From positions 1 through 37,024 of the IMG/VR virus record IMGVR_UViG_3300030061_001847: a DNA stretch of 37,024 nt. One strand, given 5' to 3'. The first letter of the stretch is position 1. Each line of letters starts with the position of its first letter. This DNA is from a virus. The translations under genes were made by a program, and so were the position numbers. Below, piece by piece: positions 3,450 to 22,594 of this stretch. A model generated the notes under the pieces. That model was not told the DNA's origin. It did no database searches and worked only from the letters and a program-made list of their open reading frames with translations.

Positions 3450-3450
3450 C

Positions 3451-3476
3451 AAGGGACTCTTCGGAGTCCCTTTTTT
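3451..3476 (+). terminator. strong intrinsic terminator with TTCG tetraloop
   Basis: AAGGGACTC (3451-3459), loop TTCG (3460-3463), then GAGTCCC (3464-3470) and TTTTTT (3471-3476). The GC-rich part is a perfect 7-bp stem capped by an extra-stable tetraloop. It closes the early operon that begins at the 2204 promoter. Confidence 0.92.
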
Positions 3477-3493
3477 ATTGCAACGAGGTCCAA

Positions 3494-3652
3494 ATGGAAG
3501 AAAAAATGCTACGTGAAATTGCAAACGATGCAATAACACCCAAGAAAACAAATAAAAAAGTGCAAAATGACCTTTATGAGAGGGTAGAAGACAATGAATT
3601 CTATGAAGGATTGGACTATGACGACCAAATGATACCCTCTGCAGAAAGTTAG
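3494..3652 (+). CDS. small acidic protein, 52 aa, unknown function
   Basis: ATG at 3494 with GAGG about 6 bases upstream; TAG at 3650-3652. The product (MEEKMLREIANDAITPKKTN..., YEGLDYDDQMIPSAES) has a helical N-terminal half and an acidic C-terminal tail. I recognise no family. It stands alone between the strong terminator and the late promoter of gp25, so it probably depends on the octamer at 3442 or on readthrough. Confidence 0.6.
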   Translation: MEEKMLREIANDAITPKKTNKKVQNDLYERVEDNEFYEGLDYDDQMIPSAES

Positions 3653-3657
3653 TCATC

Positions 3658-3674
3658 AATCCTTAATAAATAAA
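3658..3674 (+). promoter_or_regulatory. late promoter of gp25/gp6/gp7 block
   Basis: AATCCTTAATAAATAAA contains the T4-type late octamer AATAAATA (3665-3672), ending 21 bases before the GTG of gp25. The same 17 bases recur unchanged before gp8 (21012-21028). Confidence 0.75.
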
Positions 3675-3693
3675 CAATAATTGCTGTATTAAT

Positions 3694-4095
3694 GTGCCTA
3701 TAGAACGAGTTAGCCAAGGATTTAAGGATATTAGCATGACTTTTCAAGTTAATCCCCTTAATTCAGACCTCATTGGTCTTAAAAATGAGAATGCTATTGC
3801 TCGTTCTGTAAGAAATATTGTTTTTACTTTACCTGGAGAGAAGTTCTTTGATGAAGATTTTGGATCTAGAATCTCTGCTTCCCTTTTTGAGAATATTGAT
3901 GACATTTCTGCAGCAGAAATTGTCGATGAGATAAGACAATCGATTGTTAATTATGAACCAAGGGTAGATTTACTTGATGTACAAGCATTTCCTAACTTTG
4001 ATAACAATCAATTTGATGTTCGTATTGTATATGAAATCATAGGAGCTGATGTTCCTGCTCAAGAATTGCAATTTGCACTACAGTCAACCAGATAG
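3694..4095 (+). CDS. 25: gp25-like baseplate wedge protein, 133 aa
   Basis: Baseplate wedge subunit of the GPW/gp25 family, which carries a lysozyme-like fold without need of catalysis and helps form the inner baseplate. The hallmark is NIVFTLPGEKFFDEDFGSRI at residues 41-60, and the length (133) matches T4 gp25 (132). The start is GTG 3694: the ATG two bases earlier runs into a stop after three codons, while the GTG frame gives the N terminus MPIERVSQGFKDISM that I recall for cyanophage gp25. A shorter start at Met15 is possible. It is directly followed by gp6 with no gap, as expected for proteins that meet in the wedge. Expressed late from the promoter at 3658. Confidence 0.93.
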   Translation: MPIERVSQGFKDISMTFQVNPLNSDLIGLKNENAIARSVRNIVFTLPGEKFFDEDFGSRISASLFENIDDISAAEIVDEIRQSIVNYEPRVDLLDVQAFPNFDNNQFDVRIVYEIIGADVPAQELQFALQSTR

Positions 4096-6021
4096 ATGGG
4101 ATTAGTTAATTTTTCTAACCTTGATTTTAATCAAGTTAAGACATCGCTTAAAGAATATCTTAAAGCAAACTCTACTTTTACGGATTATGACTTTGAAGGG
4201 TCTAACCTTTCATCCATAATTGACGTACTAGCATATAATACCTACATTACTTCGTATAATGCCAACATGGTAGCGAACGAAGTCTTCATTGATAGTGCTA
4301 CTTTAAGGGAGAATGTAGTCTCATTGGCAAGAAACATAGGATATGTACCAAAGTCACGTAAAGCAGCAACTGCAACCGTAAGTTTTTTCGTAGATTGTTC
4401 AGATATTACCCCAACACCCTCCACAATTACTCTTAAGGCAGGTCCTGTTGCAGCAACTTCAGGAACTTTTGGTAATCAATCGTTTATTTTTTCTATTTGT
4501 AATGATATTACTGTTCCAATATTAGACGGAATTGCTAATTTTAATGAGATTAGCATTTATCAGGGGTCTTTACTCACTTCGACATTTACTTTTAGCTCTC
4601 AAACACCTAATCAGAAGTTTATTTTACCAAATGCAGGTATTGATACCTCATTAATAAAGGTTGTAGTAAGACCAAATCAACAATCGACAAGTAAAACCAA
4701 TTATACTACTCAAGATAGTCTCTTTGATCTTGATTCTGAGTCAAAAGTTTACTTCTTGCAAGAAATTGAGGATGAACGATATGAACTTTTCTTTGGAGAT
4801 GGAATTTTTGGTAAAAAATTAGATGAAAATAACTTTATTAAGGCAGATTATATAATTTCTAACGGCGATACTGGAAATGGAGTCAGTCAATTTGAGTTTG
4901 CTGGAAATTTATCATATGAACGGAATGGATTAGACTATACAGTCACTTCTGGAGTGTCTTTAATCACTACAGACATTTCTTCGACTGGTGGTGAGAATAT
5001 TGAGACAGTAGAATCGATTAAAAAGTTTGCACCACGCATTTATGCCTCTCAAAATCGTGCTTTAACAGCAAATGACTATGAAACATTGATTCCAACTCGA
5101 ATTTATCAAGAAACAGAATCAGTTTCAGTCTTTGGAGGTGAAGAATTAGTTCCTCCTCAGTACGGAAAGGTCTTTATTAGCATAAAACCCAAAACTGGCG
5201 ACTTTTTACCTAATTTAATCAAAGAAAATATCAGAACTAAGTTAAAGAAGTATGCTGTAGCAGGAATTGTTCCAGAAATCCTTGATTTGAAGTATCTTTA
5301 TATTGAAGTTGAGTCAAAAATTTATTATAACACTAATTTGGCAAATAGTGGAGCATCTGTATCAAGTATTGTTTCTCAAAATGCAACTAAGTATGCAGAA
5401 TCTTCAGAAATGAACAAATATGGAGCAAGATTTGCATATAGTAAGTTTTTAAACATTATTGACCAAAGTAGTGAAGCAATAACTTCTAATATTACAACAG
5501 TTCAGATGAGAAGGGATTTGCGAGCTGCATTAAATAGTTTAGCAGAGTACTCAGTTGGGTTTGGTAATGCATTCCATATTAAAAGTATGGATGGTTATAA
5601 TATTAAGTCTTCTGCATTTAGAATAAGTGGATTTACTGAGGATGTTTATCTTTCAGACATTCCTAACACTAATAGAGAAAATGGATCTCTATTTTTATTC
5701 ACTCTTCCATCACCATCTTCTACAACACCAACAATTGTTAGAAGGAATGTAGGAAGTATAGATTATAAGCAAGGAATTATCACTATTAATCCAATTAATG
5801 TGTTATCTGGTAAAATAAAAGATGGTCAGACCATTATCGAGTTGTCAGCATGTCCTGCTTCCAATGACATCATTGGATTACAGGATCTTTATTTACAACT
5901 AGATATTAGTACCAGTAATTTTGAAACAGTTGTGGATGACATATCTTCAGGATTAGATCCAGCAGCATCTGAGTATATTGTTACCTCTAGTTACGCCAAC
6001 GGGACATTAGTAAGATCATAA
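4096..6021 (+). CDS. 6: gp6-like baseplate wedge protein, 641 aa
   Basis: Homologue of T4 gp6, the wedge protein that dimerises to form the continuous inner ring of the baseplate and drives its change of shape on infection. The length (641) is close to T4 gp6 (about 660). The N terminus, NFSNLDFNQVKTSLKEYLKA followed by FEGSNLSSIIDVLAYNTYI, is typical of gp6 and the related baseplate J proteins. LRENVVSLARNIGYVP-SRKAA (residues about 71-94) is the conserved core, and ELFFGDGIFGK lies near residue 231-241. The ATG directly follows the gp25 stop, and the gp7-like gene starts one base after this stop, so the three are one transcription unit. The position supports the name as much as the sequence does. 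Confidence 0.92.
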   Translation: MGLVNFSNLDFNQVKTSLKEYLKANSTFTDYDFEGSNLSSIIDVLAYNTYITSYNANMVANEVFIDSATLRENVVSLARNIGYVPKSRKAATATVSFFVDCSDITPTPSTITLKAGPVAATSGTFGNQSFIFSICNDITVPILDGIANFNEISIYQGSLLTSTFTFSSQTPNQKFILPNAGIDTSLIKVVVRPNQQSTSKTNYTTQDSLFDLDSESKVYFLQEIEDERYELFFGDGIFGKKLDENNFIKADYIISNGDTGNGVSQFEFAGNLSYERNGLDYTVTSGVSLITTDISSTGGENIETVESIKKFAPRIYASQNRALTANDYETLIPTRIYQETESVSVFGGEELVPPQYGKVFISIKPKTGDFLPNLIKENIRTKLKKYAVAGIVPEILDLKYLYIEVESKIYYNTNLANSGASVSSIVSQNATKYAESSEMNKYGARFAYSKFLNIIDQSSEAITSNITTVQMRRDLRAALNSLAEYSVGFGNAFHIKSMDGYNIKSSAFRISGFTEDVYLSDIPNTNRENGSLFLFTLPSPSSTTPTIVRRNVGSIDYKQGIITINPINVLSGKIKDGQTIIELSACPASNDIIGLQDLYLQLDISTSNFETVVDDISSGLDPAASEYIVTSSYANGTLVRS

Positions 6022-6022
6022 A

Positions 6023-9000
6023 ATGCCAGAAAAGAGAATCCAGTTTAATAATGTAGTTCAGAACCAACTCCCTGCTTATACGCAGAATGAGTTTCCTTTA
6101 GTTTCTGAATTTTTAAAGCAATATTACTTAGGACAAGAATTCCAAGGTGGTCCTATTGATTTAATACAAAATATTGATCAATATACTAAAGTTTCTGAGC
6201 AAACTAATCTAGTTGATGCTGTAGGATTATCTACCTCTGTAGATCAGTTTACTGATGTCATACCTGTGGACATGGCAGTGTATCCAGCAGGAACACATGG
6301 ATTTCCAGATTCTTATGGACTAATAAAAATTGGTAATGAGATTATTACATATACAGGAACTGCAACAACTTGTTTTACTGGTTGTGTGCGTGGATTTTGT
6401 GGTATATCATCATATAAGAATGCAACCAGTCCAGATGTACTAGTTTTCGATTCGACGACCTCTGAAGAGCATACAGGAGGGTCTAAGATCCAAAATTTAA
6501 GTACTCTGTTTCTTAAACAATTTTTACTTAAAACAAAAAATCAATTATTACCTGGATTAGAGGATCGTCCCTTACATAAAGATCTTGATCAGAATATTTT
6601 TATAAAACAATCAAAAGATTTTTATCTAAGCAAAGGTACTGACCAATCCTTTGAAATTTTATTTAAAGCTTTATATAATGAAGAAGTAGAAATAATAAGA
6701 CCTAGAGATTTTCTGTTTACACCATCAAATGCAAATTATAGAATAGAAAATCAATATGTAGTCGAATCTATCGAGGGTGAAGGAAATCCAATACACCTTG
6801 AGAACTCTACTTTAATACAAGACGAATATAAAAAAGATTTTAATAGAGCATATGCTCCTATTTCATCAATAGAACCAATTAATACTGGAGCAGGTAAAAC
6901 TTACTACAAATTGGGTATTGATGGAGGATATAATAGAGATTCTAGAGTTGAGGGTTCTACCTACGGAAAATTTGAGGTTCATCCAAAAACAAGAGTAATT
7001 GGACAGGTATCTTCAGGATCCACTTCTCTTGATGTTGATTCTACTGTAGGATTTCCAACAAGTGGTGAATTATATTGTACTTATAGTGATGGAACTGCTG
7101 GTATTGTTTCTTACTCTCATAGAAACTTAACTCAATTCTTTGATTGCACTAATATCAATGGAACTATTTCTAATGCCACTGATGTTGGAATTAATACTTA
7201 TGTTTACGGTACTTCTTCTCAAGATGCAACTAAAGTCGTTAAAGTTAGGATTGGATCAGTATTAGATAAATTGGAATGGGATGATAATACTAGAAGTTAT
7301 GGAAAAGGTGATGTTGCTAAAATTAAAACCTTAGGTATTTCGGATAAAACATTTAAAGGTAAAGATTGGTTCTTTAATGTTGCTGCAAGTTATAAAATTA
7401 AAAATGTAGAGTTAATTGACTCTGCTGATTTTACATATAAAGTTAATTTAAATGTAGATCATTTTCTAAAGGTTGGAGATACTATTACTATTCTTCAGGG
7501 AGGATTTGCTTTACAAACTTCTACGATTCTTAATATAAATTCAGCCAGATCCTTTAATGTTAAAGGTCAGGGGCAAATTACTGATGAAAGTGCTCTTACT
7601 TTAAGAAGAAATATATCAAAGGCAGTATCAAATACTTATCCAACAGTTACACCATATTCTACTAATATACAAAACGTATATGTAAAAGATAATAACAAAT
7701 ATTTGGTTGCAACAGGTTCTATTCCTTCCTATTATGCTCAACCTTTAAATGTTTCTAATCAAGCAGTAGTATTTTCGGGACAATTTGAGGGAACCGAATT
7801 TTTAATTAAACAAAGCGGAGATCATGGATTCTATACTGGCGATGCTGTTTATTATTCACCAGAAAAAATATCTCAAAATTTTTATGATGCTTTTGGAAAA
7901 GAAATAACTAAAATTGTTGATGGCACTGAATTATTTGATGAGGGTCTTTATTTTGTAAAGAGAATAGATTCTTCTACAATTAAATTAGCAACAAGTAGAA
8001 CTAATATTTCTAATGGATTATACGTTTCAGTTGACACTGCTACAACAGTAGTTAATAGTAGAATAGAACCTTATGATTTTAAATTTAAAACACTTCAGAC
8101 TCAAGATCTTTTACGTGAATTTGTAGATCCTCAATTTGATAATGAAGAACCTATTACAACTTTACCTGGATTTACAGGAATGTTGGTTAATGGAGTAGAA
8201 ATATTAAATTATAAAGCATCTGATACTATTATCTACGGACAACTTAATAAAGTTGATGTTACTGCACCAGGAAGAGATTTTGATATAATTAATCCACCAG
8301 TTTTACATATTTCTGATTCTGTTGGTACTGGAGCTACTGGACATGTTGCTGTCGAAGGTTCATTAAATGCTATTAAGGTAATTGATCCTGGTTTTGATTA
8401 TGAAGAAACACCAATTGCTAAAGTTTCTGGTGGTAATGGTCAAGGTGCTGTTGTTTCTGTAAATATGAAGCAAATAAGTCATCAAGTTGATTTCTTTGCG
8501 GATGCTAATTCTCAAAAAATTGGTATTGGTACAACTTCCAATAATTCATTCCAAATTGGGTTTAGTACATACCATAAATTTAGAAATGCTGAAAAAGTAG
8601 TTTACTATACCTATGGTCAACAGGCAGTTGCTGGAATTGTAACAAATGCACAGTATTATGCTAGGAATATTGGAGTAACTACAATTACTCTTCATAAAAC
8701 GGAAGCAGATGCTATAAGTGGAATTAATACTATTACTTTAACTGCAAATGGTATTGGAAAACAATCTATTGCTTCAGTTAATAAAAAATTAGTAGTAGGA
8801 TCTTTTAATATAATTTCTAGTGGATCTGGTTATGAAAATAAGAAAACAACTACTAATACCAGTGGAATTAATACTGCAACTGATATCATTACCATTTCCA
8901 ATCATGGATATAATTCTGGTGAGATAGTTAACTATACAGTTGAGGGTACAGTAGTTGGTGGATTAACTAATAGTACTGATTATTACTTAACAAAAATTAC

Positions 9001-12000
9001 TGATGATGGTTTTAAATTATCAAGCGTAGGTATAAACACAAATGACAGAGAATTTAATTATAGAACAAAACAATATATTGATTTTACTACTATTGGTGTA
9101 GGTACTCATATATTTAATTATCAACCTATTACGATAAGTGTTAAAGGTAAAGTTGGAATATCTTCTATAGCAGGAGATACTTTTGAGTGTGAAACACAAC
9201 CTATTTTTAGAGGATCTATTAAATCAGTTCATCTAACTGATAATGGTATTGGATATGGTTCTTCTGAAATTATTAATTTTAATAGACAACCATTATTTAA
9301 CTTAATTGCAGGTTCTCAGGCACAATTAACACCAGTAATTAATAATGGAAAAATTGTAGAAGTATTAGTACAGAATGTAGGTAAAGAATATATTTCTCCA
9401 CCAGATCTTGTATTAATTGGTGATGGAGTAGGTGCAGTTCTTACTCCTGTATTAGAAAATAATACAATAACCTCAGTAAAGGTTATTGAAGGAGGTGCTG
9501 GATATACTCAATCAAATACAACAATTACTGTAGTTGTTCCAGGAGATGGTGCAGAATTTGATGCAAATATTAAAAATTGGAGAATAAATTTATTCCAGAG
9601 ACATTATGATAATTTTACAGGAGATGATGGATTTATTGCTGACGAGTTTAATGAAAATAAAGGATTACAGTATTCTCACATATATGCACCAAGAAAGCTC
9701 AGAGAGTCCCTCTACGGCACTGTAGGGGCAGGCTCAACGGTCTCTAAGATCCAATATGGTAAAAGAGACCTGACTAGACTTAACAGTCTTGAGATCCCTT
9801 CTACAGACCACTCACCGATTATAGGATGGGCATATGATGGTAATCCAATATATGGTCCTTATGGGTATTCTCTTAGAGAAGGTGGAGTTGTAAAACAATT
9901 AACTTCTGGATATAAACTCTCTTTAAAACCTAATAGACCTCCTATTAATCAATTCCCTGAAGGATTTTTTATTGAGGATTATGTACATAATAATGTAACT
10001 GAGGAAACTGTCCTTGATGAAAATAATGGACGATTCTGCGTTACTCCAGAATTTCCAAATGGAACCTATGCTTATTTTGCAACTATAACTGATGGTGTAG
10101 CAGATAGTAGTGGACCATTTGCTGGATATAAGACACCTGTATTCCCTTATCTTATTGGTGAAAATTATTATTCCACTCCAAATGATTTTAACTTTAGTTC
10201 ATTCTCTAATCAACAACAATATCTTTTACAAGATAGTGATTGGATAAGAAATACTGTCGCATATAATCTTATTGAAGGAAAAGATAATTATGAATATGTT
10301 TATATACCTGATCAATTAAAACAAACTATAGATATTACTTCAGTAAAACCTGGACTTATTAAGTCGATAGGAATTCAGACTTCTGGAACTCAGTACCGTG
10401 TAGGTGATAAAGTCGTATTTAATAATACTAATACTGAAGGGGATTTAGGATCTGCTATTGTTTCTAAAGTTATCGGAAAAGATGTTACTAATGTAAGTGT
10501 TGCGACAAGTACAGTAACTTCTATGGAGATCTTCCCTAGAGAAAAGGGACAATATATTCTTTATGCTAATAAACCACATGGATGGTCTAATAATGACTTA
10601 GTTACAGTTAGTGGACTTTCTACAACTTCTTCGGGAATTGGTGGAGTTTATAAAGCAGGAATTACATCTAACAGTTATAAATTAATTGGTTTTGGTACTC
10701 AACCTACTGGAATTGGTACTGATGGAGTAACTGGAATTATTACTTATTTTAATATCAATGGAGATTTTACTAGTATAGATCCTAATGATATTTTAAGAAT
10801 AGGTACTGAGAAAATTAAGGTATTGCAAGTAGAACCTGAAAACAATCGTATTAGAGCTCTTAGAGCACAAGAAGGTACTACAGGTGCTGCTCATACCGTA
10901 AGCACAGTTCTTTTTGACGATCCTAGAAAATTAATAATTAATGCTGGATTTAATACAACATATACTGTTAAGCTTAATACAGAAATTTATTTTAGTCCTA
11001 ACGTTACTGCCTCGGTTGGATCGACTATTATAACCCCTGCTGGACTTGCCATTGGCGATACAGCAACAGCAACAGCAACACTTGGTGCAGGTACTTCTGA
11101 AGGAAAGGTAATTAGTATAACAGTAACTGATGGTGGTACAGAATATGCATCAGTGCCTACAGTTACGTTCAGTGATCCTTCAGGAACTCAACCTTCCGCA
11201 ACAGTTGGTCTTGGTACTACTTCTATTACTGCAGCAGCAACTGCTACTGTAGGTGCTATAGGTGCTGCAGGGACTTTTTATGGAACAGTAACTGCTACTA
11301 GTATAACATCTGTTGGTGCTGGATATACTTTAGCACCTACAGTTACATTCTCTGCTCCTACAGGTATAACGGGTCTTGCAACAGTTGGATTAGCTACAGT
11401 AGGAACAGGTGGCACAACTAGGTTATTAGCATCATCCGTATCCATCGGCAATTCTGGACTGGGATATATAACTGCTCCTACAATTACTATTAGCAGTTCT
11501 TTCCTTTCATCAGGTGGAATTCAAACAGCAGTAGGTATAGCAACTGTTAATTCTACTGGTATTATTACTGCAATTTCATTTGATCAAGCTGATCCATGGT
11601 CTGCAGGAACTGGTGCTACAGTTGGTTTTGGATATAGTACTGCACCTACACTTACATTCTCTGCTCCTAACGGTCTTGCTACAGCAGCAGGTATAGCAAG
11701 TCTATCTGGAGATTCTGTAAATTCAATTCTTGGAACTAATGCTGGTGTTGGTTATAGCACTGCACCTACTATCACTTTCAGTGCTCCTACTACATCAGGA
11801 ATAGGTAGTACATCTGTTGTTCCTGGATCTGTATCAATTGCTAATTCTGGACTAGGATATGCAACTGCTCCAACAATCACGGTCTCTGCTCCTCCCTCAG
11901 GTACAACAGCAGTAGGTATTGCAACTATCAATAGTATTGGTATGGTTACTGCGATATCATTTAATAGTGTTGATCTATGGGCAGTTGGAGCAGGTGCAAC

Positions 12001-15000
12001 AATTGGTAGTGGATATACTTCAGCACCTACACTTTCATTCAGTGGACCTAGTATTGCTCTCGGACTTACTACAGCAACAGCAACAGCAGTATTAACTGCT
12101 GATGTTGTAACTTCATTAACTCTTACCAATGCTGGTTTTGGATATACAACTGCCCCTACAATTACAATTGTTGATCCAGATCAAGCTCCAGTTTATCAAA
12201 CTGGTGTTGGTCTAGGTGCTACTGTACAACTTAGTAATAGTCCAAATTATCCAAATAAGAGAACCGTAGGAACACCTGCTGGTGGTTTCCCAAGAGGTAG
12301 AGGTACTGCTGGTGCTGGACTTACTGAAGTTAAGGTTCCCTTTAAAACTATATTCCTTCCTAATCATGGATTTGAGACTGGTGATCAAGTAGAATATTAT
12401 CCTAATTTAGGATCAGGTATTTTAGTAAGAGATGATGTTGTTACACAAACAGGTAGTAATTATGTTGGTAATACTACATCCATTTTACAAAGTGGTGAGA
12501 AACTTTTCATTGCTAAAGTAAGTGATAATTTAATTGGAATTGCCACAGTTTTAGTTGGATTAGATACTTCAGGTAATAATTTTGTTGGTGTTGCTGAGAG
12601 TGTTAGACAATCATCAACTTTAAATATTATCGGTATTGGAACAGGACTAGAGCATAGTTTTAAAACTGTTTATAATCCAATTACAGCAGATGTTGCTAGA
12701 AATTTAGTTACAGTATCTACTGGAAGTAGTCATGGATTATTAAAAGATGATGAGATAGATTTAACTATAAATCCTTCATCTATATCAACAACATTTACTG
12801 TTAAGTATAATGATTTTAATAGAAGAATTATAATTAATCCAAAAGACTTTACTGCTGCTGGAATAAACACTACAACTAATGAAATTACTATCACTAATCA
12901 TGGATTAGTAACTGGTCAAGAGATTATTCATACTGCAACAACATCTTCTGTTGGTTTAAGTAATAATGCAATTTACTATACTATTATAATTGATGAAAAT
13001 ACAATTAAATTAGCAGATACTAATTATAATGCAACTTTATTAAAACCAATTACTATTGGAATTACTAGTGCATCTGCGGGAACTATTAATCCAATAAATC
13101 CTCCAGTAAGAGTTTATAGAAATCAATCTGCTATATTTGATCTTAGTGATTCTTCTTTAGGATATGTAAATCAAACAACTACATATTCAGCATTTGATCT
13201 TAATTTCTATACAGATAGGAATTTAACTGAAAAATGGGAAACTGATAAAACTGATGAAACATTTAATGTTACTAAAGTTGGAAAAGCAGGTGTAGATGCT
13301 AATGCATCAGTTACTCTTTCAGTTAATGAATATATCCCTAATATTCTTTATTATACACTTGATGTATTAGAAGAAAGTGATACTCCTTTAAGCAAAAGAT
13401 CTATTATTAAAAAAGACACTTTAGTTAATGATGCAAGTGAAGTGCAAACCGTATCAAGTAGATATAATGGTAAATTTAATGTTTCTGTTGGGGCAACAAA
13501 TACTTTTAATTATACAGTATCACATAAACCAGAAGCAACAGAATATACATCAACTACCTCAATTCTGAGTTATGAAACAGAGTCTTCAACTGCATTTGGT
13601 GGAGTATCAGGATTTGAGATAAGAGATGGTGGTAGAAACTATTATTCGGTTCCTGGAATTGCTACTATTACGTCAGATACAGGAAAAGGAGCTCTTATTA
13701 ATGTAGAAAGTGAATCTATAGGTAAAATTAATAAAGTTCATATTAAAGATATTGGATTTGATTTCCCATCCGATCCTACATTAAGTCCAAGTGTTGGATT
13801 ACCTCAAATTATAACAATAGAAAATCTTGCATCTATTAAATCAATAGGAATAAGTTCTGTGGGTAGAGGATATACTACAGCACCAAAACTTCTTGTTTTT
13901 GATGGTATAACCAATAAGAGAGATTATGATATTGATCTTGATTATTCATTAGGTGATCAGCAAGTAACTATTCTCAAGAATACTAAAGGTTTAAGTAATG
14001 TACAACCAACTATTATCCCAACTAATGCAAGTAATGGAGTAGGAATTAATACAGTTGGATTTAATACAACTACTAAAGATGTAAGTGTAACTTTATCGGT
14101 TGGATTTAGCACTGCTGGATCTTTCCCATTCTCGGTTGGTGATAAGGTACTTGTAGAGGGTGTAAGTGTTGGTCTTGGTACAACTGCAAGAGGATATAAC
14201 TCTGCGGAATATGACTATAAGTTATTTGAGATAACTGCTGTTGATCCAAATATTGGTGGACTTGGTATTGTTACTTATAGTGTTTATAATGAATTTAAAG
14301 ATTTAGATCCTAGAGTAACACCTGGTCAATATAATGAACAAAATTCCGTCGGTAGATTAATACCTGAAAAGTATTTCCCAATATTTAATATTAAATTAGG
14401 TATACATGATTATCTCAAAGGAGAAACAGTACAATCTGATTCTGCTATTGGTACTGTTGAGAATTGGGATTCTAAGTTAGGAGAATTAAGAGTTTCTGCT
14501 AGTGAAGACTTTACAGTTGATGAAACAATTAAAGGATTGAGCTCAGAGACATTAGGAATTGCTTCTTCTATAAGAACATATGATGCTTCTATAAAAACAA
14601 ATATTTTCACTAAGGTTAATAAAGGATGGGAAACTGATTCTGGTGTTCTTAACTATAATATGCAAAGAATACAGGATAGTTACTATTATCAGAACTTCTC
14701 ATATTCATTAAGATCTAAAGTAGCATATCAAACTTGGAATGATGTTGTAAGTGCATTAAATCATACTACAGGACATATTAAATTCTGTGATCTACAACTT
14801 GACTCTATTAATGATAATGTAATGAGTGTTGGTTTAACTACTGAGACAACTTCTTATGAAATTGTTAATGATCTATATGGTATTGGTAATTTAAACTGTG
14901 TTCATGACTTTGATCTTGTAACAGAAAATTCTAAAAATGTTGGAAATGATATAGTTTCTGATGAAATAATATTTGCAAGTAGAATTCTAACTGATTATGA

Positions 15001-18000
15001 TGAATCTGTTGGTAATAGAGTTTTATCAATTGATGATATTAGTGGATCATTTAATCATCGCCCTAGAGCAACTCAATTTAGTATAGCTAATGAGTTTGAT
15101 TTATCAACCACTAGAGCAAGGAAATCTTTCCATTTTATTATGGATAAGAGATTTACTGGCGAAAGGCAGTTAACGGTTACTAATGTAATTCATGATAATA
15201 TGTTTGGTTACCTTTCTCAGTATGGTAACGGTGGTAGTGTTTATGATATCGGATCATTTGATTTTGCAATCGCTGGCGGTAAAGGTCAATTACGTTTCTA
15301 TCCAAGAAATTATAAAGTTAATGATTTCCATATTACTACTGTTTCATATAATCTAGAAGATGAATATCTAGGAATTGGTACTACTTCTGTTGGTGTAGCA
15401 CTGATAGAATCTCATAGTACAGAGGCAGCTAAGGCAGATGCTTCTACTGTTATTGTTGGAATTGCAAGTACATATCGTTCTGCGAAAGTATTAGTTTCTA
15501 TTAATCCTGATCAGTCTAAAATAACCACTGGAGAATTTGAGTATGATGAATTAAATATTATACATGATGGTAGTACTATAGATCTTGTAGAATATGATCA
15601 ATTAGTTACTCTTCCTGGAAATTATACATCGTCAGGAGTTGGAACTTATTCAGTTGGTTATAGTGGTAGTGATATCCAACTTTCATGGCATCCAGATAGT
15701 AGTAATGCTGGTGTTGGAACCACTGCTGTTATTAATACAATTACCATTGGTATTGGTAATTCTGATTACAGTGGAGTTGGAACTTTCACTATGAAGCATA
15801 GTAAGTTTAATACAAAGTCTACTACTATTGCTGCTGCCTCTGTTGGTACAACAAGTGTTATTGGAGAATACATTACTCAAATAGATTCTGCTACAGATGG
15901 TTATGATGCTGGTTACTTTATAGTACAACTTACAGATACTACAAATGGTTCTTATAACATGGCAGAGATGCTTGTTATGGATGACTACCTGTTAGCAGAG
16001 GAAAGTGGAGATACAATAGATCTTGAGTATGGTAATATTGGTGTTTCAGGAATAGGAACATTAGGTTCTAGAATAGTTGCTGATACAAATGCAGGTATAG
16101 CAACAGTTCAGTTATTATGCACCCCTACAGCAAGTATTGGTATCCAAGCACAAGTGTTTATGCAAGCACTTAAAATTGAAGATGATACTAAACAAAATAT
16201 GTCATTTGATAATGGTGCTGTTACCAGTGAATATAGTGATTATGAAGGAACTGAAAGAGATGTTAAGAAAGCATTTGATATTCAGCATGAAACCACTCCA
16301 ATCTTTGATAGAAGTTTCACTGGTAATAGTGATGCTATTGTAAGTGTTGCGAATAATACAATTGATATTCCAAATCACTTCTTTGTAACTGGTGAAAAAG
16401 TCACATACACTCATGTAGGAACAGGTAGTTCTGGTGCTGTAGGAATTGCTGCTACAAACGGATTTGCGGGTGTTGGTAATACTACTCTTTTACCATCTGA
16501 TGTGTTTGTTGTTAAAATAAATGAGGATAAGATTAAATTAGCAGCAACAGCTGAAAAATCTTTAAGATCAATTGCTGAAACTGTCACTATTACAACAGTT
16601 GGTGTAGGTACATCTCATAGATTTACATCCACAAATCCAAATGCAAAAGTACTTGTTAGTTTAGATAATATTATACAATCACCTGTTGTAGCAACAGCAG
16701 TAACAACTCAATTAGCAGTTGCTGCTAAAACAACTGATGATATTGTTTTCTTTACTGGAATTACTTCCTTTACAGGTGCTGATCTGTTTAGAATTGGTAG
16801 TGAAATTATGAGAATCGACTCTGTTGGTGTTGGTAGTACCAATGCTGTAAGAGTACGTAGACAATGGTTAGGAACAAATCTTGCAGGGCATTCTACAGAT
16901 TCATTAGTAACTAAGGTTAATGGTAATTATAATATTGTTGAGAATGTTCTAAACTTTACAGAAGCACCTTATGGAAATACTCCTCTAAGTACAAGCACTA
17001 ATCCACCAGATAGTAGAGATTGGACTGGAATAGCAACTTCATCTAGTTTTAGTGGTAGAATGTTTATGCGTTCTGGTGAAACTGATACTTCTAATGAAAC
17101 ATATTATCAGAATTATATTTTTGATGATATATCACAAGATTTTAATGGAACTACCTCAAGTTTTGATCTTAAGACTAGTGGATCCAATGTAACTGGAATT
17201 GCTACTGAAAATGCAATTATTCTTCTTAACGATGTATTCCAAGGACCTGTTCTTAATTATGACTTAACTGAGAGTGCTGGAATTACTAGTATTACATTTA
17301 CTGGAGCAGGAACATCAATCGCTGCTGATGTTAATACCTCACAATTACCTATTGGTGGTGTAATTGTTTCTGTAGGTTCTACAGAGGGTATGGGATATCA
17401 ACCTATAGTTGCTGCTGGTGGTACTGCAGTTGTTTCTTCTGCAGGTACTATCAGTGCTATTACCTTAGGATATGCTGGATCTGGGTATAGATCTGGTATT
17501 GGACAAACTGTTAGAGTTGCTATTCAAACATCAAGTCTTACTGGCGCAGAAGTTGTAAGATACGGAACTGCTACAATTGGTAGTGCTGGAGCTATTACTG
17601 GAATTGCAATTACTAACACAAATGTAATTTACAAACCAAGAGATATACAAAATGTTGGATATAATTCTGTAACTGGTATAACAACAATTACTACTGCAGT
17701 TGCTCATGGATTGGATAATGGAGAAGCAATTAAGTTAAGTGGAATTGCATTCACTTGCGACTATGCTTCAGCAGTAAGTATCTCCACTGTTGGTTATACA
17801 ACATCAACTGGTATTATGACCGTCAGTACTTACAGTGCTCACGGTCTATCTACAACTGGATCTAGAAGTCAAGCAATCTTTACTGGGTTAGCATTTACTT
17901 GTTCTTTAGATAATGGTGTTTATCAACACATTTATCCAAGAAATAGAGATAGAGTATTTAATACTGCTGTTTCTGTTGCATCAACAACTTCTACTACTAT

Positions 18001-21000
18001 CACCGTAGATGTTACTGCTGCTAAGTCACTTGATCAATATGTTCATACATTTGTAGGACCAGGAACTGAAGCAGTGATTGCTGGTGGAACTTATGGTCAT
18101 AAGTTTATTGGTATTGCTCAAAGTGCTGTAGTGTCTGGTGGTGATTACCTCCATACATTTGTGAGTTCTGGTGTTGGTAGTGTCACTGTTACGGGTATTG
18201 GAACCACCACCGCTACAGGTGCTACTTATGATGCATCTACAGGTGATTTGATTCTAACAATTGTTGGTCATGGTGCTACAACAGGTAATACGATTGGAAT
18301 TGCTACTGGTGGTATAGTCTTTACATGCTCAATGGATGATAACGGAACCAATCATCCTTATCCTCGTTCTACTGATCCTCTTGCTGGATATGGAACGACT
18401 GATATTAGTTCAGTTACTGATAATACTATTACAATTAATGTTGGTACATCTAAGACAGTTCCACATGCTGTAGAGGATGCGGTTTATGACGCTCCTACAG
18501 GTATATTAACCATGACAATACCATCTCATGGTTTATCAAGTAATCGTAGCATTAGATTGACTCCATACAGTTTATCATTTACTTGTGATATGGATCAGCA
18601 TGGAAGTATCCATACATATCCAAGAATAACTGATCCAGCATACAATACAGCAGTTTCTATCTCTGCTACAACAACAGATACAATAACTGTAAACGTTGGA
18701 GCATCTACACAAACGAAGTATAATGTCACCGCAGCTAATTACGGTGCTGCTACAGGTATTTTAACAATGACCGTTGGTTCTGGTCATAGTATTACTGCTG
18801 GAGACAGTATTAAATTTAAGAAAGAAGGTTTAACCTTTACATGTACTAAAGATGGTAATTCTACTAGACATAAGTATCCAAGAGAAGGTGATCCCACTTA
18901 TAATGGAGTTGATGTATTAAAGATTAATAGTACTACTGAATTTGAGGTTAATATTGGTATCTCTACAGTATTAAGTCATTACACTGGTGTAGGAACTGCA
19001 AAAGTACAACCTGTTATTATTGCTCCAAGAGCAGTTAATAACTCTGCTAGTGGAACAGATAAAGCAGAACCTGGTGTAAGTGTTTTGTCTGTCATTGATG
19101 ATTATTCATTCATTGTTGACACTGGAGTTTCTACTCTTCCTCATAATTATGCTAGAGGTGGAACAATCTCTAAACCAATGAAAGTAGTCATTGACGAACC
19201 ACAGTCTTACACAAATATTCCTCTAGATTATGCTACTCCTGCTGTTGGAGTTGGAACCAATGCTACTATTGATATTGTTGTAAGTCTAGGTGGTAGTGTA
19301 AGAGATTTTAAACTTAATAATTCTGGTAATGGTTATGGTAACCTAGAAACACTACGTGTTCCTTTCGGCGGAACAACTGGAATTCCAACAACTTCTTCCT
19401 TTACTAATAATCCATTTGAGTTAACTATTGATCAAATTTATAGTGATGAGTTTACTGGATGGTCATTAGGAACCCTAGAGTCTCTAGATGATTGGAATAG
19501 TAAGTTTGATGGAAATACAACTGTATTCCAATTACAAAGGGCAGGAGATACACTTTCTATTAGATCTTCTAAAGGATCTAAAATTAATGTGCAGGATGTT
19601 ATCCTTATCTTTATTAATGATATCATGCAAGTTCCTGGTGAGGGATATACATTTACTGGTGGTAGTAATGTAACATTTACAGAAGCTCCTAAGGTAGGAG
19701 ATACCTCTAAGATTATCTTCTATAAAGGAAGTGGTGGTATTGACGTTGTAGCTAGAGAAATTATTGAAACTGTTAAGAAAGGAGATGATTTGACCATAGA
19801 AAATGGTTCAGAACCATTCTACATGGGAGAAAATGTAAGGGGTGTTAGCACAGTATCCTCTACAGATACAGTAAATACTGTTCCTTATTATGGTCCAGGT
19901 AATACTGAAAATGAAAGTCTTTTAAGACCAGTTGTTTGGTGCAGACAAACTGAAGATAGAGTTATCAATGAAGAATTGGTAGGAAAAGATAGAGAACTTT
20001 ATAATGCTAATATAAATCCTACTGCTTTTGCTCTTAATAGTGTTGGAATTGGATCTACTGTAATTTTTGTTTCTAATGTAAGACCATTCTTTGATCCTAC
20101 AAATGAAAATGGAAGTGCTACTTTAAGAAGCACAATTCAGGATAAGATTGATATTCTTCCTCAATTAACTAGAACAGGTGCTGCTGGAACAGCATTAGTT
20201 TCTACAGCAGGAACAGTAACTGGAGTTACACTATCTACGGGTGGTGAGGGATATACAACTGCTACGGTAAGTTTTGCATCTACCACTGGTGTTTCTACTT
20301 CTTCTCAGGCAATGGGATCAGTAACTGTAGCATCAGGATCTATAACTGCTATTGCGATTACAAATCCAGGAGTTGGTTATACCCAAACAAGTGTCCCTCT
20401 TGTAAGTATTTCTCCACCTACACTTATTTCTGAAACAGATACTGTAAGATCATATGCTGGTGATTCTGGTAATATTGTTGGATTTGGAACTACTACAATT
20501 GGTAGTGGAACTCAATTGATATTTGATTTATTCATTCCTCTTGATTCTTATCTAAGAGATACAACTCTTACTGGAACTGCTGTTACTATCTGTGGTTTAA
20601 CTACAGGTGCTATGTTTATGGTCTATGATTCTAACGTTGGTGTTGGATCTACAAGAGTTACTTCGGTAAATAGTGGAGATGAGACAATCGGAATCGGACA
20701 CTCATATGTAGATAATGTGTATGAAGTTGCTGATTGTGAAGGTCAATATATAAATGTGACAGGTGTTGGATTTACCTATATTAAACGGGTATTCGCCAAG
20801 ATTGATGGTGAAGTTTCTGGATCATACTCTGGAATTACTTCTTCCAATTATCAAGGTTCCTTTAGTTGGGGTAAAATTATCGTTTCTAGATCTGAAGAAA
20901 ATGCTTATACTGCTTATACACAGAGTGGTATTGGTACAAATAATCTAACTGGAATATCAACTTCTTTCATCATTAGAAGAACAAATCCTCTTAAATCTAA

Positions 21001-21013
21001 GAGTTATACTTAA
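6023..21013 (+). CDS. 7: giant gp7-like baseplate wedge protein, 4996 aa
   Basis: This sits exactly where T4 has gp7, between gp6 and gp8. Residues 199-224 (DFYLSKGTDQSFEILFKALY, then NEEVEI) closely match a segment in the C-terminal part of T4 gp7, the wedge initiator that binds gp10, gp8 and gp6. T4 gp7 is 1,032 aa; this protein is almost five times longer, and the conserved segment is near its N terminus. The rest is a beta-rich mosaic: an IG-E/RG module (about 100-150), a YHYH-type domain (1263-1380), eight tandem glycine-tyrosine beta repeats (about 1694-2055) within some twenty overall, HG-x-x-G modules, a less repetitive centre (about 2860-3390), and four FTC/YPR/DP repeats (3958-4300). 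Two INDxxQxP-type modules (about 3730 and 4530) are reminiscent of gp10-like fibre domains. The single frame has no interruption. Probable role: a wedge plus long peripheral arms or host-contact structures. The gp7 identity is fairly sure; the role of the extension is inferred. Confidence 0.85.
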   Translation: MPEKRIQFNNVVQNQLPAYTQNEFPLVSEFLKQYYLGQEFQGGPIDLIQNIDQYTKVSEQTNLVDAVGLSTSVDQFTDVIPVDMAVYPAGTHGFPDSYGLIKIGNEIITYTGTATTCFTGCVRGFCGISSYKNATSPDVLVFDSTTSEEHTGGSKIQNLSTLFLKQFLLKTKNQLLPGLEDRPLHKDLDQNIFIKQSKDFYLSKGTDQSFEILFKALYNEEVEIIRPRDFLFTPSNANYRIENQYVVESIEGEGNPIHLENSTLIQDEYKKDFNRAYAPISSIEPINTGAGKTYYKLGIDGGYNRDSRVEGSTYGKFEVHPKTRVIGQVSSGSTSLDVDSTVGFPTSGELYCTYSDGTAGIVSYSHRNLTQFFDCTNINGTISNATDVGINTYVYGTSSQDATKVVKVRIGSVLDKLEWDDNTRSYGKGDVAKIKTLGISDKTFKGKDWFFNVAASYKIKNVELIDSADFTYKVNLNVDHFLKVGDTITILQGGFALQTSTILNINSARSFNVKGQGQITDESALTLRRNISKAVSNTYPTVTPYSTNIQNVYVKDNNKYLVATGSIPSYYAQPLNVSNQAVVFSGQFEGTEFLIKQSGDHGFYTGDAVYYSPEKISQNFYDAFGKEITKIVDGTELFDEGLYFVKRIDSSTIKLATSRTNISNGLYVSVDTATTVVNSRIEPYDFKFKTLQTQDLLREFVDPQFDNEEPITTLPGFTGMLVNGVEILNYKASDTIIYGQLNKVDVTAPGRDFDIINPPVLHISDSVGTGATGHVAVEGSLNAIKVIDPGFDYEETPIAKVSGGNGQGAVVSVNMKQISHQVDFFADANSQKIGIGTTSNNSFQIGFSTYHKFRNAEKVVYYTYGQQAVAGIVTNAQYYARNIGVTTITLHKTEADAISGINTITLTANGIGKQSIASVNKKLVVGSFNIISSGSGYENKKTTTNTSGINTATDIITISNHGYNSGEIVNYTVEGTVVGGLTNSTDYYLTKITDDGFKLSSVGINTNDREFNYRTKQYIDFTTIGVGTHIFNYQPITISVKGKVGISSIAGDTFECETQPIFRGSIKSVHLTDNGIGYGSSEIINFNRQPLFNLIAGSQAQLTPVINNGKIVEVLVQNVGKEYISPPDLVLIGDGVGAVLTPVLENNTITSVKVIEGGAGYTQSNTTITVVVPGDGAEFDANIKNWRINLFQRHYDNFTGDDGFIADEFNENKGLQYSHIYAPRKLRESLYGTVGAGSTVSKIQYGKRDLTRLNSLEIPSTDHSPIIGWAYDGNPIYGPYGYSLREGGVVKQLTSGYKLSLKPNRPPINQFPEGFFIEDYVHNNVTEETVLDENNGRFCVTPEFPNGTYAYFATITDGVADSSGPFAGYKTPVFPYLIGENYYSTPNDFNFSSFSNQQQYLLQDSDWIRNTVAYNLIEGKDNYEYVYIPDQLKQTIDITSVKPGLIKSIGIQTSGTQYRVGDKVVFNNTNTEGDLGSAIVSKVIGKDVTNVSVATSTVTSMEIFPREKGQYILYANKPHGWSNNDLVTVSGLSTTSSGIGGVYKAGITSNSYKLIGFGTQPTGIGTDGVTGIITYFNINGDFTSIDPNDILRIGTEKIKVLQVEPENNRIRALRAQEGTTGAAHTVSTVLFDDPRKLIINAGFNTTYTVKLNTEIYFSPNVTASVGSTIITPAGLAIGDTATATATLGAGTSEGKVISITVTDGGTEYASVPTVTFSDPSGTQPSATVGLGTTSITAAATATVGAIGAAGTFYGTVTATSITSVGAGYTLAPTVTFSAPTGITGLATVGLATVGTGGTTRLLASSVSIGNSGLGYITAPTITISSSFLSSGGIQTAVGIATVNSTGIITAISFDQADPWSAGTGATVGFGYSTAPTLTFSAPNGLATAAGIASLSGDSVNSILGTNAGVGYSTAPTITFSAPTTSGIGSTSVVPGSVSIANSGLGYATAPTITVSAPPSGTTAVGIATINSIGMVTAISFNSVDLWAVGAGATIGSGYTSAPTLSFSGPSIALGLTTATATAVLTADVVTSLTLTNAGFGYTTAPTITIVDPDQAPVYQTGVGLGATVQLSNSPNYPNKRTVGTPAGGFPRGRGTAGAGLTEVKVPFKTIFLPNHGFETGDQVEYYPNLGSGILVRDDVVTQTGSNYVGNTTSILQSGEKLFIAKVSDNLIGIATVLVGLDTSGNNFVGVAESVRQSSTLNIIGIGTGLEHSFKTVYNPITADVARNLVTVSTGSSHGLLKDDEIDLTINPSSISTTFTVKYNDFNRRIIINPKDFTAAGINTTTNEITITNHGLVTGQEIIHTATTSSVGLSNNAIYYTIIIDENTIKLADTNYNATLLKPITIGITSASAGTINPINPPVRVYRNQSAIFDLSDSSLGYVNQTTTYSAFDLNFYTDRNLTEKWETDKTDETFNVTKVGKAGVDANASVTLSVNEYIPNILYYTLDVLEESDTPLSKRSIIKKDTLVNDASEVQTVSSRYNGKFNVSVGATNTFNYTVSHKPEATEYTSTTSILSYETESSTAFGGVSGFEIRDGGRNYYSVPGIATITSDTGKGALINVESESIGKINKVHIKDIGFDFPSDPTLSPSVGLPQIITIENLASIKSIGISSVGRGYTTAPKLLVFDGITNKRDYDIDLDYSLGDQQVTILKNTKGLSNVQPTIIPTNASNGVGINTVGFNTTTKDVSVTLSVGFSTAGSFPFSVGDKVLVEGVSVGLGTTARGYNSAEYDYKLFEITAVDPNIGGLGIVTYSVYNEFKDLDPRVTPGQYNEQNSVGRLIPEKYFPIFNIKLGIHDYLKGETVQSDSAIGTVENWDSKLGELRVSASEDFTVDETIKGLSSETLGIASSIRTYDASIKTNIFTKVNKGWETDSGVLNYNMQRIQDSYYYQNFSYSLRSKVAYQTWNDVVSALNHTTGHIKFCDLQLDSINDNVMSVGLTTETTSYEIVNDLYGIGNLNCVHDFDLVTENSKNVGNDIVSDEIIFASRILTDYDESVGNRVLSIDDISGSFNHRPRATQFSIANEFDLSTTRARKSFHFIMDKRFTGERQLTVTNVIHDNMFGYLSQYGNGGSVYDIGSFDFAIAGGKGQLRFYPRNYKVNDFHITTVSYNLEDEYLGIGTTSVGVALIESHSTEAAKADASTVIVGIASTYRSAKVLVSINPDQSKITTGEFEYDELNIIHDGSTIDLVEYDQLVTLPGNYTSSGVGTYSVGYSGSDIQLSWHPDSSNAGVGTTAVINTITIGIGNSDYSGVGTFTMKHSKFNTKSTTIAAASVGTTSVIGEYITQIDSATDGYDAGYFIVQLTDTTNGSYNMAEMLVMDDYLLAEESGDTIDLEYGNIGVSGIGTLGSRIVADTNAGIATVQLLCTPTASIGIQAQVFMQALKIEDDTKQNMSFDNGAVTSEYSDYEGTERDVKKAFDIQHETTPIFDRSFTGNSDAIVSVANNTIDIPNHFFVTGEKVTYTHVGTGSSGAVGIAATNGFAGVGNTTLLPSDVFVVKINEDKIKLAATAEKSLRSIAETVTITTVGVGTSHRFTSTNPNAKVLVSLDNIIQSPVVATAVTTQLAVAAKTTDDIVFFTGITSFTGADLFRIGSEIMRIDSVGVGSTNAVRVRRQWLGTNLAGHSTDSLVTKVNGNYNIVENVLNFTEAPYGNTPLSTSTNPPDSRDWTGIATSSSFSGRMFMRSGETDTSNETYYQNYIFDDISQDFNGTTSSFDLKTSGSNVTGIATENAIILLNDVFQGPVLNYDLTESAGITSITFTGAGTSIAADVNTSQLPIGGVIVSVGSTEGMGYQPIVAAGGTAVVSSAGTISAITLGYAGSGYRSGIGQTVRVAIQTSSLTGAEVVRYGTATIGSAGAITGIAITNTNVIYKPRDIQNVGYNSVTGITTITTAVAHGLDNGEAIKLSGIAFTCDYASAVSISTVGYTTSTGIMTVSTYSAHGLSTTGSRSQAIFTGLAFTCSLDNGVYQHIYPRNRDRVFNTAVSVASTTSTTITVDVTAAKSLDQYVHTFVGPGTEAVIAGGTYGHKFIGIAQSAVVSGGDYLHTFVSSGVGSVTVTGIGTTTATGATYDASTGDLILTIVGHGATTGNTIGIATGGIVFTCSMDDNGTNHPYPRSTDPLAGYGTTDISSVTDNTITINVGTSKTVPHAVEDAVYDAPTGILTMTIPSHGLSSNRSIRLTPYSLSFTCDMDQHGSIHTYPRITDPAYNTAVSISATTTDTITVNVGASTQTKYNVTAANYGAATGILTMTVGSGHSITAGDSIKFKKEGLTFTCTKDGNSTRHKYPREGDPTYNGVDVLKINSTTEFEVNIGISTVLSHYTGVGTAKVQPVIIAPRAVNNSASGTDKAEPGVSVLSVIDDYSFIVDTGVSTLPHNYARGGTISKPMKVVIDEPQSYTNIPLDYATPAVGVGTNATIDIVVSLGGSVRDFKLNNSGNGYGNLETLRVPFGGTTGIPTTSSFTNNPFELTIDQIYSDEFTGWSLGTLESLDDWNSKFDGNTTVFQLQRAGDTLSIRSSKGSKINVQDVILIFINDIMQVPGEGYTFTGGSNVTFTEAPKVGDTSKIIFYKGSGGIDVVAREIIETVKKGDDLTIENGSEPFYMGENVRGVSTVSSTDTVNTVPYYGPGNTENESLLRPVVWCRQTEDRVINEELVGKDRELYNANINPTAFALNSVGIGSTVIFVSNVRPFFDPTNENGSATLRSTIQDKIDILPQLTRTGAAGTALVSTAGTVTGVTLSTGGEGYTTATVSFASTTGVSTSSQAMGSVTVASGSITAIAITNPGVGYTQTSVPLVSISPPTLISETDTVRSYAGDSGNIVGFGTTTIGSGTQLIFDLFIPLDSYLRDTTLTGTAVTICGLTTGAMFMVYDSNVGVGSTRVTSVNSGDETIGIGHSYVDNVYEVADCEGQYINVTGVGFTYIKRVFAKIDGEVSGSYSGITSSNYQGSFSWGKIIVSRSEENAYTAYTQSGIGTNNLTGISTSFIIRRTNPLKSKSYT
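9701..9810. other. GC-richer patch inside the giant gene
   Basis: By count, about 48% of these 110 bases are G or C, against roughly one third on either side, and codon choice shifts (CTC, TCC, ACG, GTC, AAG, ATC, GAC). The reading frame is kept. It ends just where the YHYH-type domain begins, which suggests a recombination tract. Confidence 0.5.
9809..10162 (+). other. YHYH-type domain within the giant gp7-like protein
   Basis: Residues 1263-1380 carry the order of motifs of the YHYH family (PF14240): GWAYDGNPIYGPYGY (1269-1283), LDENNGRF (1331-1338), then FPNGTYAYFATI and FPYLIG (1374-1379). In the family the third motif is YHYH; here it reads YAYF, so both histidines are lost. The domain occurs in many marine bacterial and phage proteins and its function is unknown. 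Confidence 0.75.
11101..12185 (+). repeat. eight tandem glycine-tyrosine beta repeats in the giant gene
   Basis: Eight units of the form G-x-GY-x-x-AP-T-(I/V/L)-T-F-S-AP, spaced about 35-60 residues apart, lie in residues about 1694-2055 (for example GAGYTLAPTVTF, GFGYSTAPTLTF, GVGYSTAPTITF, GLGYATAPTITV). Units 3-5 and 6-8 resemble each other as blocks, offset by about 127-131 residues (S at 11435 and 11828), so a three-unit block has been duplicated. Single copies occur along the rest of the protein. Confidence 0.8.
17894..18970 (+). repeat. FTC/YPR/DP repeat array in the giant gene
   Basis: Four copies of FTC-x-x-D...H-x-YPR-x-x-DP...I-x-VN(V/I)G begin at residues 3958, 4100, 4186 and 4272. 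The last three are spaced exactly 86 residues (258 bases) apart. A truncated FTC element (about 17750) precedes them. Each unit is preceded by an HG-x-x-x-G module, so the two alternate. Confidence 0.8.
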
Positions 21014-21043: not shown

Positions 21044-22594
21044 ATGGCCGCAATTATAACTGACCAAATTAGAATACTTAATGCGAAGAATTTTCTTTCT
21101 GGGGTAACATCTACCGCAAACGCATATTATTCTTTCATTGGTCTGCCCAATCCCACTGATATTGAAAGTACTTGGGATACAAGTCCACCTTCACCAAAGG
21201 ACAACTTTGATGAGGAAGATAATTATTGGGACACAATGATTGCGTTGAAGAAAATTAATTCTTCAGATGCTAGACAAGTTGTTACTAGAAGATTATGGAC
21301 ATCGGGAACAACTTACGATATGTATCGTAGTGATTATAGTAGAACTAATACTGCTAAGGTATCTGGTGCGACTAATTTATATGCTGCTACTTATTTTATT
21401 ATAAACAGTGATTATAGAGTTTATGCTTGTTTACATAATGGTATAGATCCTGATAACCCCAATGGAAAACCATCTTTGGATGAACCCACATTTACTGATT
21501 TAGAACCTAGGAAAGCTGGTACTAGTGGTGATGGATATATTTGGAAATATCTTTATACTATTAAACCAAGTGATATTGTAAAATTTGAGTCTACTGATTT
21601 TATTCCTGTTCCTACTGATTGGTCAACAAATTCAGATGTTGCTTCAGTAAGAGATAATGCTGTAGATGGTGCAATTAAAATTGTAACTATCACTGATCGT
21701 GGAGTTGGTTTAGGAACTGCTAATAGCACTTATACTAAAGTTCCAATTTTTGGTGATGGTACAGGTGCAGAATGCACTATTGTTATTAATAATGATCAAA
21801 AAGTTTCTGATGTAACTGTTTCTACAGCAGGACAAAATTATACTTACGGTAATGTTGATTTAGAAGCAGGTGGAGTTCCTACTGGAACTACTAGACCAAC
21901 ATTTGATGTCATCATACCACCACCAGGTGGACATGGAAAAGACATTTATAGAGAACTTGGTGCATTTAATGTCCTTTTATATTCTAGAATTGAGAATGAT
22001 ATTGAGAATCCTGATTTTATAACAGGAAACCAAATTGCTAGAGTTGGTGTTATTGAAAATCCTAAAGCAACGTCAGGAGCACTTTTATCTGCTGATAAAG
22101 CAAGTGCTGTTGGTGCTTTGAGGTTAACAGGTGCTGGTTATAGTTCTGCCACATTTGATGCTGATGCGTATTTTACTCAAACTGTATCTGCAGGAACTAC
22201 TGCAGCGGCTAGAGTTGTTAACTATGATCAAACCACTGGGGTTTTAAAATATTGGCAAGATAGAACTGTGGCTGGTTTTAATACCGTTGGCACAGCACAA
22301 ACAAATCCTACTTATGGATATAATCTAACAGCATTTACTGCCAGTCCTGGAACTAATGGTAGTTTAACTATTACTCCAACTAGTGGTTCTAATTTAGCCA
22401 TAGATACTTCCTTTACGGGTGTCTCTACTGTAATAAATAATAGGACATACTACCTTGGACAGGAGTTTACCAGTGGGTTAGCTTCTCCTGAAGTTAAACC
22501 ATACTCAGGAAATATAGTATATGTTGATAATAGACCTTCAATAACTAGGTCTACGAATCAAAAAGAAGATATTAAAGTTATTTTGCAGTTTTAA
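21044..22594 (+). CDS. 8: gp8-like baseplate wedge protein, 516 aa
   Basis: Homologue of T4 gp8, the wedge protein that binds gp7 and gp10. Two landmarks match T4 gp8: SGDGYIWKYLYTIKPSD (about residues 163-180; T4 has GDGYVWEYLFEI) and the C terminus VYVDNRPSITR...EDIKVILQF (T4 IYMENRPP...EEINILFTF). At 516 aa it is about 180 residues longer than T4 gp8 (334). The extra length is largely in the middle and contains glycine-rich beta elements (VSTAGQNYTYGNVDL, LTGAGYSSATFDA) like those in the giant protein. ATG 21044 has no strong ribosome site. It stands directly after gp7, as in T4. Confidence 0.9.
   Translation: MAAIITDQIRILNAKNFLSGVTSTANAYYSFIGLPNPTDIESTWDTSPPSPKDNFDEEDNYWDTMIALKKINSSDARQVVTRRLWTSGTTYDMYRSDYSRTNTAKVSGATNLYAATYFIINSDYRVYACLHNGIDPDNPNGKPSLDEPTFTDLEPRKAGTSGDGYIWKYLYTIKPSDIVKFESTDFIPVPTDWSTNSDVASVRDNAVDGAIKIVTITDRGVGLGTANSTYTKVPIFGDGTGAECTIVINNDQKVSDVTVSTAGQNYTYGNVDLEAGGVPTGTTRPTFDVIIPPPGGHGKDIYRELGAFNVLLYSRIENDIENPDFITGNQIARVGVIENPKATSGALLSADKASAVGALRLTGAGYSSATFDADAYFTQTVSAGTTAAARVVNYDQTTGVLKYWQDRTVAGFNTVGTAQTNPTYGYNLTAFTASPGTNGSLTITPTSGSNLAIDTSFTGVSTVINNRTYYLGQEFTSGLASPEVKPYSGNIVYVDNRPSITRSTNQKEDIKVILQF

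Follow-up and report, generated by a model that had tools for sequence, protein, structure and literature searches.

A giant gp7 baseplate wedge protein of a cyanomyovirus, with a split core and two variable module arrays

The 15-kb gene described here encodes gp7, a baseplate wedge protein of cyanomyoviruses, and is real, correctly read and of an already known kind. What is new is its split-core architecture, in which a wedge core of ~200 aa is divided by ~2,620 aa and followed by a further ~2,060 aa, together with the rapid gain and loss of modules at two places. The giant gp7 ranks among the largest proteins of phages that are themselves among the most abundant in the sea. The DNA analysed, referred to as the window, is a linear 37-kb viral record (37,024 nucleotides), a fragment of a cyanomyovirus. 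The reading that best explains the whole is a cyanomyovirus gp7 with a split core and two module-built arms, which we hold with moderate confidence. The gene and its neighbours are as follows.

3694..4095 (+): gp25, sheath initiator and wedge protein, 133 aa (assigned from gene order and from a gene of equal length next to gp6 in S-SM2)
4096..6021 (+): gp6, baseplate wedge, 641 aa (Pfam Gp6-like_1st, E=2e-15; Gp6_C-I, E=6e-9)
6023..21013 (+): gp7, giant baseplate wedge protein, 4,996 aa, 531 kDa (ATG start, no internal stop; phrog_2885 baseplate wedge subunit, E=0)
21044..22594 (+): gp8, baseplate wedge, 516 aa (Pfam PF09215, Phage-Gp8, E=4e-15; phrog_438)
22601..30190 (+): VrlC-like protein (DUF4815), 2,529 aa, the next large baseplate gene (PF16075, E=4e-55; phrog_358, E=0)

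The Pfam domains of both neighbours place the giant open reading frame (ORF) between gp6 and gp8. The window gp6 shares 74% identity with its counterpart in Synechococcus phage S-SM2, which points to a marine picocyanobacterium as the probable host. At positions 920-1196, five exact copies of TTTTCCACA occur on both strands within 277 intergenic bases, a cluster that we take to resemble a DnaA-box cluster; 0.74 copies are expected in the whole 37 kb, and the maximum in 100 shuffles was 3. Upstream of gp25, close pairs of TTTTCCACA are likewise found in P-TIM68 and S-SM2, at a distance of 2-3 kb.

The claim of the original prediction that this is one 15-kb gene without a stop is confirmed by an uninterrupted 4,996-aa ORF of coding-type base composition, the chance of so long an open frame at this composition being about 1e-176 (computed). 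GC content at the third codon position is 0.08-0.17 across the entire gene, compared with 0.35-0.67 at position 2, and this steadily low value indicates coding over the whole gene. An assembly error, against which the prediction had warned, is ruled out for practical purposes, since the same giant gene is present in many isolates and as 41 complete ORFs on IMG/VR contigs. The protein is 4.8 times as long as T4 gp7 (4,996 versus 1,032 aa), in line with the predicted factor of nearly five. The 40% of the window that the gene was said to occupy is correct as a figure but stems from window size; the share is ~8% of a ~190-kb genome such as that of S-SM2.

To judge by sequence, the conserved core of the giant protein is almost certainly the gp7 core. 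It consists of two blocks, which also set the limits of two long regions, termed outlets.

6023..6757 (+): gp7 core block A (aa 1-245), motif DFYLSKGTDQSFEILFKALYNEEVEI (hhalign to T4-type gp7, E=6.5e-9; to X1-type gp7, E=4.3e-13)
6758..14614 (+): outlet 1, about 2,620 aa inserted between blocks A and B (aa 246-2864), which set its limits
14615..14818 (+): gp7 core block B (aa 2865-2932), YYQNFSYSLRSKVAYQTWNDVVSALNHTTGHIKF (hhalign to X1-type gp7, E=9.8e-9; to T4-type, E=3.1e-5)
14819..21010 (+): outlet 2, C-terminal extension (aa 2933-4996, about 2,060 aa), set by block B and the end of the ORF

Block A corresponds to about 642-759 of T4 gp7 and to residues 1-134 of gp7 (498 aa) in Xanthomonas phage X1, while block B corresponds to about 859-889 and about 378-442 of these proteins, respectively. 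Homology to the core of T4 gp7 (the helical part and the DFY...KG...LF motif, 642-759) is thus present in the window protein. Block B contains HPxGF in most relatives and HTTGH in the window protein itself. A two-block core profile was built without T4 and replaced a profile containing T4, which was circular (T4 at E=1.8e-38). When PDB was searched with the two-block profile, T4 gp7 ranked top (E=5.6e-11) and matched via both blocks in collinear fashion, followed by T6-type gp7 (2.3e-10), with the next match at 0.12. The two collinear blocks, this first PDB match and the place between gp6 and gp8 together uphold the proposed identity as gp7. Blocks A and B are kept in unchanged order from T4 through X1-type phages to cyanophages, and X1-type gp7 has PHROG and Pfam Baseplate_wedge matches and weakly resembles the phage tail domain TIGR02242. 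A scan for further minimal gp7s gave only two more contigs. The gp7 chains matched in PDB are all T4-type, and for giant gp7s neither a structure nor a functional test was found. T4 gp7 has been described as absent from cyano- and pelagimyophages, with VrlC in its place (PMC7029224); contrary to this account, the sequence comparison indicates that cyanomyoviruses do have gp7.

The positions of blocks A and B mean that the giant part of the protein is an insertion inside the core plus a C-terminal extension. It is therefore not T4 gp7 grown longer, as had been supposed: the N-terminal ~640 aa of T4 are missing, and the bulk lies between and after the two conserved blocks. In T4 gp7, domain V (766-861) occupies the outlet-1 position and domain VI (920-1012) the outlet-2 position, after block B; the window protein has no Pfam match to either. 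The two missing domains are insertions of the T4 branch that are replaced here, and lie outside the shared core. By analogy, the outlets may be the same as the protrusions of XM1 gp17 and TssG, with the T4 correspondence being the only one compared by sequence. Because the core is confined to two short stretches, it is clear where to look for gp7 in a cryo-EM map.

A wedge core with two beaded, beta-rich arms is the likely architecture. The earlier suggestion of long arms on the baseplate is plausible inasmuch as two variable arrays of small beta modules exist, while the geometry of the arms is something we infer. The two arrays, or hotspots, are as follows.

11102..12211 (+): hotspot 1, eight ~35-aa 'GxGYxxAPTxTxS' units (aa 1694-2063) (repeat analysis; copy counts in relatives)
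17651..18973 (+): hotspot 2, ~85-aa 'FTCxxDxxxxxHxYPRxxDP' modules (aa 3877-4317), 5 detected (repeat analysis; AlphaFold model)

The bulk of gp7 is made largely of small beta modules, and length change is concentrated in the two arrays. Segment 3800-4420 ranges from 108 to 1,062 aa in relatives and accounts for 78% of the summed segment-length variance; segment 1650-2110 comprises 460 aa in the window, whereas the median over 38 relatives is 46. Little length variation among relatives is seen in segments 2110-2890 and 2890-3800. Seventeen copies of the ~35-aa unit are present in the window protein and 8-12 in most relatives (set of 38), while the ~85-aa module is found in 5 copies in the window protein, 12 in P-SSM2 and 18 in a separate second protein of S-SSM7. 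The hotspot-1 array has eight units in the window and in contig L122, four in contigs L123-L125 and none in 38 other relatives. The L122 array is 70% identical to that of the window, and the proteins of L123-L125 are 77-91% identical to the window protein outside the array. A difference of eight versus four units between proteins that are up to 91% identical implies in-frame gain or loss of whole modules over a short evolutionary time. The recurrence of the array in independent contigs (L122, and half-arrays in L123-L125) argues that it is not an assembly artefact. A nucleotide search of phage records with hotspot 1 gave no match, and no isolate with that array was found.

A model of two 35-aa units of the window protein shows a beta domain of six strands (pLDDT about 90). 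A pair of such units in X1 gp7 matches Pfam Gp18_dom_I (PF22639; E=2.9e-6), a family to which the window protein itself has no match. Three 85-aa modules form separate small beta barrels in AlphaFold (mean pLDDT 82, pTM 0.51), and at this pTM their relative orientation is not fixed by the model. A fold search with the 85-aa module returned small phage beta barrels and endosialidase domains (best Z 6.5, rated as common by the tool), and these matches are too weak for a function to be assigned. The 35-aa unit also occurs in three copies in a head-closure-like protein of 491 aa (31682-33157) and in one copy in gp8, and is thus common to several virion proteins.

In T4, one gp7 is joined to two copies of gp6 in each of six wedges. 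The core of the giant gp7 would dock with gp6 and gp25 as in T4, and six copies per baseplate would amount to about 3.2 MDa. Two beaded, beta-rich arms would leave the core toward the rim of the wedge. As XM1 gp17 and TssG suggest by analogy, these arms may either hold the fibres or bear host-contact modules as part of the same chain. A contact signal would then run from the arms via the gp6-gp7 wedge to the sheath. The two arrays are candidate host-contact parts, the arms may scan cell surfaces as the prediction proposed, and the giant gp7 may bind a receptor; a host-contact role of the arms, drawn from these analogies, has in our estimate slightly less than an even chance. More speculatively, the two docking loops of gp7, whose equivalents in other contractile systems hold separate spikes, may have turned into built-in arms, with phages tuning host contact by module gain and loss; if so, the eight-unit array of the window would be an arm that was lengthened recently.

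Alternatively, the bulk could be peripheral scaffold only, doing the work of gp10, gp11, gp9 and the T4 gp7 N-terminus (space-filling and fibre attachment) without host binding. Outside the two arrays, most of the protein is constant in length among relatives, as a packed scaffold should be, and in T4-like comparisons (PMC3037559) gp7, gp10 and gp12 have been classed either as too divergent or as non-cyanophage core. However, two segments vary freely in length, one of them between proteins up to 91% identical, and exposed appendages fit this behaviour better; a purely scaffolding role is unlikely, but keeps some weight for the conserved part. Growth of the arrays might also be functionless, resulting from neutral repeat slippage or recombination. 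The rapid change in copy number is what such a process would produce, and conservation within the protein is lowest in the arrays, but a large neutral gene should decay, and here frames and codon bias are kept and the modules are well formed. We regard neutral growth as improbable.

Outlet 1 contains one further recognizable domain.

9515..10222 (+): YHYH-type domain embedded in outlet 1 (aa 1165-1400) (match to Pfam PF14240 at E=6.3e-22, covering 87-183 of the 193 profile positions, the C-terminal half)

The domain is present in all relatives examined (17 isolates and a 39-sequence metagenome set) and shows the strongest conservation within the giant gp7, holding many of the invariant positions of the protein. 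YHYH domains are predicted Zn-dependent hydrolases and have been tied to tail and baseplate proteins (Aravind group, PMC7824862), so that gp7 could be a metal-dependent hydrolase that aids envelope crossing. Bacterial relatives have an intact YHHHxNP motif, whereas in gp7 it reads Y-x-H-x-Y-A-P or is lost. In both the 17- and 39-sequence alignments, Asp positions are conserved and the sole invariant histidine lies in HSP; the predicted Zn-binding histidine triad is not conserved. Fold searches with a model of the domain gave nothing above chance-like scores. With the histidine motif mostly missing, a hydrolase role is very unlikely, and the domain more probably serves in structure or binding than in catalysis.

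Cyanomyovirus gp7 usually ranges from 3,000 to 6,600 aa. Lengths in isolates are 4,156 aa in S-SM2, 4,067 in Bellamy, 4,067 in S9220M01, 4,307 in P-TIM68, 4,337 in RN05-S, 4,120 in S-SCSM1, 3,884 in S-CAM9, 4,314 in S-CAM7, 5,195 in P-SSM2, 4,446 in P-HM1, 3,048 in S-PM2 and 6,378 in S-RIM2. The ORF is complete in 41 of 80 IMG/VR loci, with lengths of 2,285-5,156 aa and a median of about 4,030, in a set that was picked by similarity to the window protein and leans toward close relatives. The gap between gp6 and gp8, the comparison that had been proposed as a check, is large in all cyanomyoviruses examined. A place among the longest phage structural proteins, which the original prediction had foreseen, overstates the case in that the window protein is ordinary for its kind, and a record length is rejected, since P-SSM2, S-RIM2 and S-SZBM1 (6,619 aa) all exceed its 4,996 aa.

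In S-SSM7 (L008 21876-40970) and Sf-FS3 (L021 2526-20055) the giant gp7 is divided into three genes, the last of which is mostly an array of 85-aa modules. The annotated record of S-SKS1 (L023 13287-20284) has no intact giant gp7 frame; an unannotated gap follows gp6, with broken frames at the place of gp7, the longest being 1,601 and 707 aa. Contigs (L106-L114) binned to Euryarchaeota, Woesearchaeota, Planctomycetaceae and other metagenome-assembled genomes (MAGs) encode a giant gp7 of the cyanophage type; these contigs are probably contaminating phage DNA in the bins.

The expected presence of the protein in virions is borne out for relatives by mass spectrometry, with 71 virion peptides for the gp7 of S-SZBM1 (PMC9146016, Table 1) and 91 unique peptides for the 1,937-aa gp7 of S-CREM2 (PMC10665884, Table 3). 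The gp7 of S-SCSM1 carries the label '(virion protein)' in its record. That the chain is cut into fragments, leaving no 5,000-residue protein in the particle, is highly improbable: the three-gene versions in S-SSM7 and Sf-FS3 imply that separate chains work, and the published 13.5% peptide coverage of S-SZBM1 gp7 does not establish an intact chain, but no cleavage evidence was found, and dozens of genomes keep the frame open for 12-20 kb.

Among known systems, the window protein is most directly compared with the cyanomyovirus gp7 'baseplate wedge initiator' (PHROG 2885, 701, 4406), with which it shares gene place, core blocks and YHYH domain. The alignment to other cyanomyovirus gp7s is collinear over the full length at 24-47% identity; unlike 38 of these relatives, the window protein has the hotspot-1 array of eight 35-aa units. 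T4 gp7 (1,032 aa; PDB 5IV5, 5HX2) also contains blocks A and B, with domain insertions between and after them. However, it has an extra ~640 aa ahead of block A and only domains V and VI (about 95 aa each) where the window has ~2,620 and ~2,060 aa, and it is without the YHYH domain and the module arrays.

The gene order gp25-gp6-gp7-gp8 is common to T4 except for gp25, which we take to be located elsewhere in the T4 genome. X1-type phages have the order gp25-gp6-gp7-gp8-VrlC as in the window, with VrlC adjoining gp8. The minimal gp7 of these phages (498 aa in Xanthomonas phage X1, 503 aa in Stenotrophomonas phage Ps15) resembles the giant form in having both core blocks and 35-aa-type beta units between them (Pfam Gp18_dom_I), but its blocks are separated by only ~250 aa and followed by only ~60 aa.

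More distant counterparts of gp7, likened by published papers and by topology, are XM1 gp17 and TssG of the type VI secretion system (T6SS), which belong to (gp6)2-gp7-type heterotrimers and have two protrusions each. In XM1 gp17 (242 aa), loop 80-106 and the C-terminus (tail 201-242) hold spikes (PMC10457771), and TssG binds one TssK trimer at each of two loops (PMC6300606). Unlike the giant gp7, both are small, and their partners bind as separate chains.
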